From Streptomyces sp. CB02959 (lineage in GTDB: Bacteria > Actinomycetota > Actinomycetes > Streptomycetales > Streptomycetaceae), in the NCBI RefSeq assembly GCF_002803155.1, contig NZ_NNBP01000002.1, forward strand, positions 124,001 to 188,000: a stretch of 64,000 bases of DNA, written 5' to 3'. Shown in pieces: positions 36,624-48,360 of this stretch. Every line of letters begins with the position of its first letter. Position 1 is the first letter of the stretch. A program made the position numbers and the translations under genes. The notes beneath the pieces are model-generated. The model saw only the letters and a list, made by a program, of their open reading frames with translations, ran no database searches and was not told the origin of the DNA.

Positions 36624-37358
36624 TCACTCCGTGCTGTCGTCCTGCCGCCCCAGCGCGACCCCGCGGACGCCCTCCAGTTCGGTCAGCGCCGCCACCAGGG
36701 GATGCGCGGAACCGTCGCCCTCCAGGCGGAGCAGTACGTCGGCCGCCACCAGGGCGTCGTCCGGATGGGCCGCCACCTGGACGTCGGAGACCCGGAACCC
36801 GCTGCCGGTGCACAGCTCCAATATCCTCCCGAGCAGTCCGTGTTGCGCCCGGTACGTCAGGCGCAGCTCGATCCGGTCGAAGGACGGTCCCCCGGTGATC
36901 CGCTCCGACACCTTGGAGAAGCCCCGCACGATCAGGAAGTGCACCGCCGTCGCGCCGATCGCGAGCAGCGGCAGGCCACCGCCGCACGCCATGCCGATGG
37001 CGCAGGTCAGCCAGATGGTCGCGGCCGTCGTCAGCCCCCGGACCGCGTCCTTGCGCACGAAGATCAGTCCACCGCCGATGAAGCCGATGCCGGAAACGAC
37101 CTGCGCGGCGACCCGGGACGGGTCCAACGCCACACCGTCCGTGCCCAGCAGCGAGCCGAAGCCGTGGATCGACACCTCCATGAACAGGGCGCTGCCCACC
37201 CCGACGAGGGTGTGGGTGCGCAACCCGGCGCTCTTCTGCCGGGCCTCCCGCTCCAATCCGATCAGCGAGGACAGCAGCAGGGCTATGGCCAGCTCGGCGA
37301 ACTGACGCGGGCCCTGGCCGGCGTGGACGTCGAACAGCGCGGCGGCGAGGTGTGACAT
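36624..37358 (-). CDS. MgtC/SapB-family membrane protein
   Basis: The 244-aa protein has an N-terminal block of about four membrane helices with the MgtC signatures IGLEREARQKSAGLRTHTLV, GIGFIGGGLIFV and VRGLTTAATIWL, then a C-terminal cytoplasmic ACT-like domain (IELRLTYRAQHGLLGRILEL). MgtC proteins support survival under magnesium limitation or acid and modulate ATP synthase in pathogens. The ATG at 37358 has AGAGGGA at somewhat long spacing. It is divergent from a damage-type promoter 50 bp away. Confidence 0.88.
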   Translation of the reverse strand: MSHLAAALFDVHAGQGPRQFAELAIALLLSSLIGLEREARQKSAGLRTHTLVGVGSALFMEVSIHGFGSLLGTDGVALDPSRVAAQVVSGIGFIGGGLIFVRKDAVRGLTTAATIWLTCAIGMACGGGLPLLAIGATAVHFLIVRGFSKVSERITGGPSFDRIELRLTYRAQHGLLGRILELCTGSGFRVSDVQVAAHPDDALVAADVLLRLEGDGSAHPLVAALTELEGVRGVALGRQDDSTE

Positions 37359-37407: not shown

Positions 37408-37430
37408 TTGTCAGTGGTCGCGGTTAGCGT
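37408..37430 (+). promoter_or_regulatory. PafBC-type (RecA-independent) DNA-damage promoter
   Basis: TTGTCAGTG (37408-37416), 8 bp, then TAGCGT (37425-37430) match the mycobacterial RecA-NDp/PafBC consensus TTGTCRGTG-N8-TAnnnT at every fixed position. Fourteen bases from CGTTGTCAGTGGTCGC are shared with the promoter at 47837. Transcription would start near 37437 and run into the small ORF and hairpin that follow. Confidence 0.65.
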
Positions 37431-37506
37431 TGAGGTCGATGGGCTGCGCGGGCGTACGCGCGGCTCGCCGGAGGCGCCGCGGGCGGTGCCGGACGGGGGA
37501 GCGGAC

Positions 37507-37620
37507 GTGGAGGACGACATGGTGAAGGCGGCACGGCCGAGGACGGCGCCGGCGCGGGCCGGTGCGCTCCGGCTTCGGATAGCCCCCGAGCTGCTCATCG
37601 ACCGGCTCGGCGGGGGATAG
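37507..37620 (+). CDS. candidate small protein behind a damage-type promoter
   Basis: A 37-aa ORF starts at GTG 37507 with GGGGGAG 5 nt upstream and ends 21 bp before a strong hairpin. The product begins VEDDMVKAARPRTAPARAG and its end (LRLRIAPELLIDRL) could form an amphipathic helix. An in-frame GTG at 37486 is an alternative start. A second, out-of-frame 28-codon Arg-rich ORF (ATG 37439-37525) begins almost at the predicted transcription start. I recognise neither. The transcript could also be a noncoding RNA of about 250 nt. Confidence 0.4.
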   Translation: MEDDMVKAARPRTAPARAGALRLRIAPELLIDRLGGG

Positions 37621-37641
37621 CGGCGCGGCGGCAGCAGGCGC

Positions 37642-37694
37642 GCGAAGGCCCGTGGCGGCGATGGCAGTTGAGCATCGTCGCCACGGGCCTTCGC
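37642..37694. terminator. 22-bp-stem hairpin ending the short damage-type transcript
   Basis: Arms at 37642-37663 and 37673-37694 pair over 22 positions with one G-T wobble-type mismatch and a 9-nt loop. It starts 22 bp after the small ORF. It lies between divergent genes, where a terminator is not expected unless a short transcript ends here. There is no U-run. Confidence 0.75.
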
Positions 37695-37746
37695 CGTGCG
37701 TGACCACTTGGTACGGGGGGCTTGTGGAAAGTGGAACACGTTCTTA

Positions 37747-37774
37747 ACATCACGAGTGTTACATCAGAAGTGTC
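37747..37774 (+). promoter_or_regulatory. 14-bp direct repeat before the beta-oxidation operon
   Basis: ACATCACGAGTGTT is followed directly by ACATCAGAAGTGTC (11 of 14 identical). The pair lies 24 bp before the ATG of the CaiB-like gene and may be an operator for the operon. Confidence 0.35.
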
Positions 37775-37798
37775 ACAGTGCGGAAGGCATGGGACGCG

Positions 37799-38974
37799 AT
37801 GACGCGGTCAGGGAACGGCCCGCTCAGCGGGGTGCGGGTGCTGGAGCTCGCAGGCATCGGCCCCGGCCCGTTCGCGGCCATGCTGCTGGCCGACCTCGGC
37901 GCCGACGTCGTCCGGGTCGACCGGCCCGGCGGCGCCGGACTGGGCATCGACCCGGCGTCCGACCTCACCAACCGCAACAAGCGCTCGGTACTGGTCGACC
38001 TGAAGCAGCCCGCCGGAGTCGGCCAGGTCCTCGACCTGGTCGAGCGCGCCGACGTCCTGATCGAGGGATACCGACCGGGGGTGGCCGAGCGGCTCGGCGT
38101 CGGGCCCGAGCCCTGCCTGGCGCGCAACCCCCGCCTGGTCTACGGCCGGATGACCGGCTGGGGCCAGGACGGACCGCTCTCCGGCACCGCCGGGCACGAC
38201 ATCGGCTACATCGCCATCACCGGCGCCCTCGGCATGATCGGCCCGCCCGACGGCCCGCCCGCCATCCCCGCCAATCTGCTCGGCGACTACGCCGGCGGCT
38301 CCCTCTACCTCGTCATCGGCGTCCTCGCGGCCCTCCAGCACGCCCGCACCGACGGTGGGACGGGCCAGGTCGTGGACGCCGCGATCGTCGACGGCACGGC
38401 CCATCTGACGGCGATGATCCACGGCATGCTGGCGGCCGGCGGCTGGCAGGACCGGCGGGGCGCCAATCTGCTCGACGGCGGCGCGCCCTTCTACGGCGCC
38501 TACGAGACCGCCGACGGCGGCTACATGGCCGTCGGCGCGCTGGAGCAGCGGTTCTACGCGGAGTTCATCCGCCTGCTCGGCATCGAGGACGACGCCCCCG
38601 GCCGGGACGACCTCGCCGCCTGGGACGACCTCCGCAGCGCCATCGCCGCCCGGTTCCGGACCCGTACGCGGGACGAGTGGACCGCGGTCTTCCAGGAGTC
38701 CGACGCCTGCGTGGCGCCGGTGCTGTCGCTGCGCGAGGCCCCCGGGCACCCGCACCTCGCCGCCCGCGGCACCTTCACCGAGCACGCCGGCCTCACCCAG
38801 CCCGCCCCCGCGCCCCGCTTCTCGGCCACCCCCGGGACCGTCCGCAGACCTCCCGCCCGCCCCGGAGCGGACACCGAGGAGGTCGCCCGCGACTGGCAGG
38901 CGCCCAGCCTCGCCACCCCGGCCGAGCAGCCCCGCCGACCACTCAGGACCACCCCCGAAGGGACAGCAGAGTGA
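37799..38974 (+). CDS. CaiB/BaiF CoA-transferase family (alpha-methylacyl-CoA racemase-like)
   Basis: The 391-aa protein is a family III CoA-transferase of the Amacr/Mcr group: GVRVLELAGIGPGPFAAMLL, DVVRVDRPGG, NKRSVLVDLK, the catalytic-pair region TAGHDIGYIAITGAL and GQVVDAAIVDG. Racemisation of 2-methylacyl-CoA lets branched chains enter beta-oxidation, which suits the operon. The start is ATG 37799 (GGGA 4 nt upstream) or GTG 37778 (7 codons earlier). The stop overlaps the acyl-CoA dehydrogenase GTG (GTGA). Confidence 0.88.
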   Translation: MTRSGNGPLSGVRVLELAGIGPGPFAAMLLADLGADVVRVDRPGGAGLGIDPASDLTNRNKRSVLVDLKQPAGVGQVLDLVERADVLIEGYRPGVAERLGVGPEPCLARNPRLVYGRMTGWGQDGPLSGTAGHDIGYIAITGALGMIGPPDGPPAIPANLLGDYAGGSLYLVIGVLAALQHARTDGGTGQVVDAAIVDGTAHLTAMIHGMLAAGGWQDRRGANLLDGGAPFYGAYETADGGYMAVGALEQRFYAEFIRLLGIEDDAPGRDDLAAWDDLRSAIAARFRTRTRDEWTAVFQESDACVAPVLSLREAPGHPHLAARGTFTEHAGLTQPAPAPRFSATPGTVRRPPARPGADTEEVARDWQAPSLATPAEQPRRPLRTTPEGTAE

Positions 38975-47836: not shown

Positions 47837-47859
47837 TTGTCAGTGGTCGCCCGTACCGT
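47837..47859 (+). promoter_or_regulatory. PafBC-type (RecA-independent) DNA-damage promoter of the macro-domain gene
   Basis: TTGTCAGTG (47837-47845), 8 bp and TACCGT (47854-47859) match TTGTCRGTG-N8-TAnnnT at every fixed position. The -10 box ends 6 nt before the ATG at 47866, so the transcript should start at or next to the A of ATG. The -35 region and six spacer bases are identical to the element at 37408. Confidence 0.7.
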
Positions 47860-47865
47860 GGGGTC

Positions 47866-48360
47866 ATGGCTGAGAAAACGGGGATCGACGCCGCAATCGC
47901 CTTCGTCAAGGGTGATGCCACCGCACCTCAGGGCAAGGGCGTCAAGATGATTGTGCATGTCTGCAACGACCTCGGGGGCTGGGGCAAGGGCTTCGTGCTC
48001 GCCCTCTCCCGCCGCTGGCCGGAGCCGGAGCGGGCCTACCGCCGCTGGCACCGCGAGCGGGCGCAGAACGACTTCGGACTGGGCGCCGTCCAGTTCGTGC
48101 AGGTCGGTGAGCATGTGTGGGTGGCCAATGTGGTCGGGCAGCGGGGCACGAGGACCGGCAGCAAGGGCGTGCCGGTGCGGTACGAGGCGATAGCGGCCGG
48201 GCTCGCCCGGGTCGCCGACCAGGCGCTGGAGTTGGGGGCCTCGGTCCATATGCCGCGGATCGGCTGCGGGCTGGCCGGCGGGAGGTGGTCCCGGGTGGAG
48301 CCGTTGATAACCCAGCGCCTCATCGGGCGCGGCGTGGCGGTGACGGTCTACGACCACTGA
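47866..48360 (+). CDS. macro-domain protein (predicted ADP-ribose/O-acetyl-ADP-ribose hydrolase)
   Basis: The 164-aa protein is a single macro domain: FVKGDATAPQGKG, IVHVCNDLGGWGKGFVLALS (ADP-ribose loop), VANVVGQRG, RYEAIAAGL and MPRIGCGLAGGRW. It is closest in style to Poa1p/ALC1-like macro domains that bind ADP-ribose or remove it from proteins or acetyl groups. A DNA-damage-type promoter fits a role in ADP-ribose turnover after DNA damage. It has no Shine-Dalgarno and is probably read from a leaderless mRNA. Confidence 0.9.
   Translation: MAEKTGIDAAIAFVKGDATAPQGKGVKMIVHVCNDLGGWGKGFVLALSRRWPEPERAYRRWHRERAQNDFGLGAVQFVQVGEHVWVANVVGQRGTRTGSKGVPVRYEAIAAGLARVADQALELGASVHMPRIGCGLAGGRWSRVEPLITQRLIGRGVAVTVYDH

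Follow-up and report, generated by a model that had tools for sequence, protein, structure and literature searches.

Mycobacterial RecA-NDp promoters share the consensus tTGTCRgtg - 8 nt - TannnT (PMC5656591), and PafBC, once activated by single-stranded DNA, enables transcription from them by the sigma-A polymerase (PMC11804915). Other Actinobacteria have been said to share the motif and, as this is already published, the kind of promoter considered here is not new in itself (PMC8223512). In Streptomyces, an initial search described in PMC9380542 did not find the PafBC motif of M. smegmatis conserved in S. venezuelae, and that paper left open whether such a response exists. The YjbR/MmcQ family (PF04237), for its part, has a double-wing DNA-binding fold (PMC7641849).

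The locus presented here lies between mgtC and a beta-oxidation operon of Streptomyces sp. CB02959, in a window of 64,000 nucleotides, i.e. the whole stretch of DNA that was analysed (Table 1). As in mycobacteria, its promoter matches the consensus, PafB-like and PafC genes are present in the genome, and sites of the same type stand before recA, uvrD-type and rarA-type genes; unlike there, the host is a Streptomyces, the promoter drives a gutted gene and the dependence on PafBC is predicted from sequence. The ends of the short ORF (mini-ORF) behind this promoter align with intact YjbR proteins at the same locus, whereas the remnant lacks most of the PF04237 domain and has no Pfam match. Two further classes come close. 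With bacterial pseudogenes bearing internal deletions, the remnant shares the lack of detectable protein-level constraint, yet it keeps promoter, ribosome site, start, stop and frame, and the constraint on its promoter is unrelaxed. With damage-induced small proteins of the SOS type, it shares a short ORF behind a damage-type promoter, but the mini-ORF derives from a larger gene and bears no sign of amino-acid selection.

The favoured reading, with a probability of about 0.8, is that positions 37408-37694 are a yjbR remnant, from which damage likely still induces a transcript of about 260 nt carrying a vestigial 37-codon ORF; it rests on the homology to yjbR, on one shortened form found in ten genomes, on a protein-level constraint that is no longer detectable and on an undiminished promoter constraint. 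The locus amounts to a natural experiment, in which the protein of a damage-type gene has been removed and the promoter constraint is unchanged, and which asks what the transcription is for.

A damage-type promoter beside mgtC

The sequence-only reading had pointed to a promoter word followed by TAGCGT at the right spacing; it is indeed present and matches the damage-type consensus perfectly. With at most one mismatch, two promoter sites occur in the window, the second copy lying at 47837-47859, and none in 100 shuffles of the window; in the whole genome, TTGTCAGTG-N8-TAGNNT has 12 exact occurrences vs. 0 for the reversed pattern. Because of these counts, the promoter is unlikely to have arisen by chance and, as it matches a known damage promoter, damage would likely still switch the yjbR remnant on. 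PafBC action is likely the same here as in mycobacteria: single-stranded DNA arising from damage would activate PafBC, which would allow initiation here by the housekeeping RNA polymerase; the transcript would then extend through the leader hairpin and the mini-ORF and likely end at the end hairpin, before the beta-oxidation operator. Both the transcript and its induction by damage are predictions drawn from the promoter and the hairpin.

Table 1. Position of the yjbR remnant, of its predicted signals and of the adjacent genes in the window.
Feature	Position	Strand	Basis or remark
mgtC, divergent neighbour, start at 37358	36624..37358	-	PF02308, 131.6 bits
RecA-NDp/PafBC-type promoter of the yjbR remnant, TTGTCAGTG-GTCGCGGT-TAGCGT	37408..37430	+	Consensus match
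Predicted damage-induced transcript, ~260 nt	37437..37700	+	Predicted from promoter and hairpin; start from the -10 position
Leader hairpin GGCGCCG-CGGG-CGGTGCC, just 5' of the ribosome site	37473..37490	+	Pattern
Ribosome-binding region GACGGGGGAGCGGAC	37491..37506	+	Slow-changing relative to third codon positions
37-codon ORF joining in one frame the two ends (N- and C-terminal) of a YjbR-family gene	37507..37620	+	Alignment with intact loci L004, L005, L007 and L008
End hairpin, likely terminator of the yjbR unit	37642..37694	+	22-bp stem, 9-nt gap
Conserved promoter/operator block of the beta-oxidation operon	37717..37781	.	Covered by most matches listed
First operon gene, CoA-transferase family III	37778..38974 (start codon provisional)	+	PF02515, 295.3 bits

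Descent from yjbR

In a DNA search over 295 genomes of the genus, relatives share both ends of the stretch, about 280 bp further apart, and alignment identifies the extra DNA as the central part of an ORF some 130 codons long, the intact protein of which (L005) belongs to the YjbR family (PF04237, E 1.8e-14). The mini-ORF, which runs from GTG 37507 to TAG 37618-37620, encodes 37 aa and is preceded by GACGGGGGAGCGGAC, corresponds to the first and last codons of intact yjbR in one frame; about 93 codons are missing and with them the greater part of the PF04237 domain, which spans residues 23-116 of intact YjbR. The promoter, the ribosome site, the C-terminal codons and the hairpin are common to intact and shortened loci, the stop differing in L008, and in 12 relatives a whole yjbR stands behind the same promoter and ends at the same hairpin. 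As judged from these alignments, the unit is an in-frame-deleted yjbR (MmcQ/YjbR-family) gene. The 37-codon ORF with its ribosome site and the hairpin with a 22-bp stem are both present as previously described, and the picture of a short unit with a damage-type promoter and a closing hairpin holds; the epithet of orphan, not explained by any known gene, has to be given up in view of the whole yjbR of these 12 relatives.

Descent is apparent from the locus itself; in a Pfam scan, the 37-aa product gives no match, be it to PF04237 or to any other family. The genome also encodes two distant YjbR paralogs, which were rejected as the source of the remnant, being located elsewhere and devoid of the box. 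Rfam has 0 matches in the window at its gathering thresholds and, by title, the literature retrieved for MmcQ with Streptomyces and for YjbR with mitomycin comprised none on such a unit.

Distribution of the locus in Streptomyces

Among the 19 strict-box loci from the scan of named genomes with mgtC, whole yjbR is found in S. natalensis, S. pinistramenti, S. endophytica, S. celluloflavus, S. nigrescens and NRRL S-337, as well as in G293, G064, G090, G347, G389 and G365. The shortened gene occurs in S. diastatochromogenes NRRL B-1698, S. noursei, S. rhizoryzae, S. albospinus, CT34, F-4489 and MspMP-M5, together with G310 and G408. In S. lydicus, as in G137, a different in-frame deletion affects yjbR, and the S. 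lydicus start codon is changed to GCG, leaving only a later in-frame ATG; in S. catenulae, the C-terminal end of yjbR is also in frame. S. rimosus and CB02923 (as in G036) have promoter and hairpin with hardly any ORF, S. monomycini has the promoter without a near operator, and in S. niger the promoter is gone. Apparent duplicates (G190/albospinus, G264/rhizoryzae, G048/rimosus and G193/S-337) were counted once each and S. benahoarensis was left out of these classes (contig ends).

In the mgtC+caiB tree, all shortened loci group in a single clade, apart from the lydicus, catenulae and rimosus types, some deep nodes being weak (37-45); on this phylogeny, the other lineages lost yjbR separately from the ten-genome clade. 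In an mgtC tree of 41 sequences, the ten shortened genomes again form one clade (support 99), and no other member was found among these 41, including the six box-less loci nearest by identity. Promoter and mini-ORF are present in 10/10 known clade members; promoter and hairpin, whose conservation next to mgtC the sequence-only reading had made its touchstone, are both kept in all ten.

Of 199 genomes, 72 encode a YjbR relative at E <= 1e-15, the window's own not being among them. Among 30 YjbR loci fetched, 26 could be anchored: 17 with the strict box, 7 with the TGTCGG core only, at about the same place as the strict box, and 2 with neither; by this distribution, the combination of yjbR and promoter goes far back in the genus. 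Another set of 40 operator loci comprised 20 from the DNA search and 20 picked by hand, YjbR being broken or partial in 8 of the latter and expected to be absent from 12; the beta-oxidation operator was found in 39 and YjbR was absent from 21, and the box was kept with at most two mismatches in 7 of these 21. The loss of yjbR with a left-over promoter is therefore recurrent, and the box decays in many lineages. Of note, at three yjbR loci (L186, L188 and L018), the box has decayed in its TTGTC half but GAGGCTAGCGT is kept, which suggests a switch to another kind of promoter control.

Tests for selection on the promoter and on the peptide

Rates are expressed relative to the mean of mgtC and caiB on the ten-genome tree, where the three codon positions of these genes evolve at 0.46/0.38/2.01. 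The promoter rate is 0.15 (0.03-0.46) in the ten-genome clade, which is free of ascertainment by the box, and 0.18 (0.06-0.42) in the 12 intact genomes, a set gathered, like the rimosus-type one, with a box-requiring pattern that lowers promoter rates. Within the clade, 8 of the 10 promoters are identical and two have one change each, hence 2 substitutions vs. 19-31 expected (P(<=2) 7e-7 or less). On these figures, the promoter is about as constrained after the shortening of yjbR as before. That the unit is an ordinary decaying pseudogene, the promoter and hairpin of which are merely not yet lost, would fit the repeated loss or breakage of yjbR in the genus and the retention of the box in only a third of the YjbR-less loci, decay thus occurring elsewhere; yet, over a clade tree of length 0.565 and at a neutral rate of about 2.0-2.4, a neutral site would have changed some 1.1-1.4 times, against 2 changes in all over the 23 promoter sites, and this explanation, already disfavoured by the promoter rate, is deemed unlikely.

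The 5' leader and the linker evolve at 1.51 and 1.20, respectively, and the ribosome region (20 nt up to the start codon) at 0.76 (0.34-1.35) vs. about 2.0 for the third positions of mgtC+caiB. The codon positions of the mini-ORF run at 2.53/2.84/2.39 in the ten genomes, vs. 0.55/0.59/1.87 for intact yjbR in 12 genomes, and such equal rates mean that no selection on the amino acids of the mini-ORF is detectable. In a codon model, omega is 0.68 for the mini-ORF (nine genomes; 2dlnL 3.05, not different from 1) and 0.16 for the same end codons in the whole gene (2dlnL 26.2). The small protein suggested by the sequence-only reading, which had called for a dN/dS analysis, is accordingly not borne out as a selected product; these values would still allow a weak constraint on the peptide. 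The alternative start given in that reading, ATG 37439, was rejected as a conserved ORF: 9/10 clade genomes have the ATG, but it takes up any of three frames with respect to the mini-ORF.

Start, stop at the same site and open frame are kept in 10/10 clade genomes. In neutral simulations (two root choices, 4000 runs each, indel-free; a test chosen after seeing the data), this was reproduced at frequencies of 0.0145/0.0105 with a rate of 1.2, 0.0025/0.0033 with 1.5, 0/0.00025 with 2.0 and 0/0 with 2.4; the frame is kept beyond chance, modestly so (0.0105-0.0145) if the neutral rate is 1.2, and a simply dead gene does not explain it. Indels counted by hand are in frame in 4/4 cases within ORFs (the deletion shared by the clade, the length differences of 6 and 24 nt and the lydicus-type deletion) vs. 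1/9 outside (ten-genome clade only); the Fisher value of 0.007 depends on this hand-made count, with the catenulae, benahoarensis and rimosus types left out, and is not the main evidence. The kept frame, rare under neutral simulation, the omega point estimate below 1 and the ORF-internal length differences in multiples of three would suit a functional, damage-induced peptide of 37 aa, interfering for instance with other YjbR proteins or with DNA. Against it, the three codon positions are equally fast, omega is not different from 1, the length varies from 31 to 39 aa with a middle that hardly aligns, and S. lydicus, with its separate deletion, has lost the start codon; a selected small protein is considered quite improbable.

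Given codons that drift and a promoter that has not relaxed, selection appears to keep the damage-responsive unit and not the peptide. Under the favoured reading, transcription upon damage would persist under PafBC, and selection would hold on to transcription, perhaps also to the act of translation, over the peptide. A bolder and rather unlikely extension is a content-free damage gene, the function of which would be the making and translating of a short transcript beside mgtC rather than any product: once the DNA-binding domain was lost, selection would have kept the promoter, the leader hairpin, the ribosome site, the start, the in-frame stop and the terminator, and would have left the peptide free to drift.

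Hairpins and RNA structure

The arms of the end hairpin (37642-37663/37673-37694) are 22 nt long, 95% complementary and separated by a 9-nt gap. By pattern, this hairpin is found in 23/30 loci, 4 of the 7 misses showing it by eye, and it also belongs to the whole yjbR gene (8 of the 12 intact relatives by pattern, the other 4 by eye); in S. catenulae it folds differently. At least four T follow the stem in 13/23 compared hairpins, and the absence of such a T run in the window (0 terminator-like sites) counts against the favoured reading. The leader hairpin, with its 7-bp stem, has the same form by pattern in 10/10 shortened and 7/12 intact loci.

The 284-nt strand folds with a z of -3.55. In 22 sequences of the end hairpin, changes on both sides affect 4/22 pairs, one inner pair being unpaired in 13/22 sequences and one outer pair in 20/22. 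In the consensus fold, both sides have changed at 3/69 pairs, all in the end or leader hairpin, and the covariance check that the sequence-only reading had proposed found no covariation in the rest of the transcript; a conserved global RNA structure was thus rejected. In the end hairpin, the 5' arm evolves at 0.57 (0.26-1.07), the loop at 0.61 (0.15-1.60) and the 3' arm at 1.70. A regulatory RNA, or the act of transcription itself, whereby the short transcript or the firing of the polymerase would control e.g. the divergent mgtC, is an appreciable possibility: promoter constraint is equal with and without the protein, the 5' arm of the stem is slow, and in four rimosus-type genomes the promoter is retained at a rate of 0.61 (CI 0.10-1.87), vs. 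2.59 (1.87-3.40) for the body. However, the transcript body changes fast, the covarying pairs lie where a terminator and a leader would show them anyway, the confidence interval of the loop is wide, as is that of the rimosus-type promoter, and the rimosus-type loci had been collected by means of the box. As far as these rates tell, the object of selection is probably a short damage-responsive transcription unit, which may work by way of its RNA, of the act of transcribing next to mgtC or of the translation of whatever short ORF it carries.

Neighbouring genes

The box could also be kept as an upstream element of mgtC and not as a promoter in its own right. Some 50 bp separate it from the mgtC start, a position shared by 6/7 named shortened loci, and the 12 nt preceding the box likewise change slowly (0.31, nine genomes); yet mgtC has a slow start block of its own (0.40), separated from the box by a faster stretch (1.38), the strict box occurs in only 19 of the 80 mgtC loci kept, out of 116, in the scan of named genomes, it precedes yjbR elsewhere in the genus, and its direction matters (PMC8151990). 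Such a role is regarded as distinctly improbable. A longer mgtC frame of 371 aa, reaching back across the promoter, was rejected, being broken by 1-nt indels in relatives.

On the other side, the operator block evolves at 0.05 over 35 nt (nine genomes); this very slow block, TGGAACACGTTCTTAACATC..GTGTTACATCAG..GTGTCACAGTG, is widespread in the genus and resembles TetR-type operators such as that of KstR. At four loci where yjbR is gone (L016, L191, L194 and L200), the box (0, 2, 3 and 2 mismatches, respectively) lies 86-116 bp before the operator with, by eye, no long hairpin in between, and it could now drive the beta-oxidation operon.

PafBC-type sites elsewhere in the genome

Besides the one at the remnant, 11 exact sites occur in the genome (L111-L121), forming a PafBC-type promoter set that includes recA and genes of the uvrD, rarA and nuclease types. 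Ten of the downstream ORFs were scanned with Pfam: RecA, a UvrD helicase, an MgsA/RarA-type AAA protein, a PD-(D/E)XK nuclease and a RecD2-type HHH protein are of repair type; the others are a KDPG aldolase, an ABC permease, an NB-ARC protein and two without Pfam match, and the boxes before these five weigh against the favoured reading. The genome encodes an HTH_PafC domain (PF19187, 109.7 bits), and two tandem frames (L148) are both of the WYL-WCX type, HTH_PafC lying in the second; the pair is taken as PafB-PafC, the first gene being presumed to be PafB from its position. These sites argue that a PafBC response in Streptomyces deserves a new look, and they make up a concrete and testable promoter set, recA included, for a response that PMC9380542 left open.

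The second promoter of the window, TTGTCAGTG-N8-TACCGT, directly precedes a near-leaderless, macro-domain-like gene (47866-48360, + strand) that reaches 21.7 bits for PF01661, just under the cut-off of 22, and whose product is possibly a damage-induced protein handling ADP-ribose. At another site (L116, 634-828), a 64-codon ORF that has no Pfam match begins 7 nt after the box, a candidate for another damage-induced small protein.
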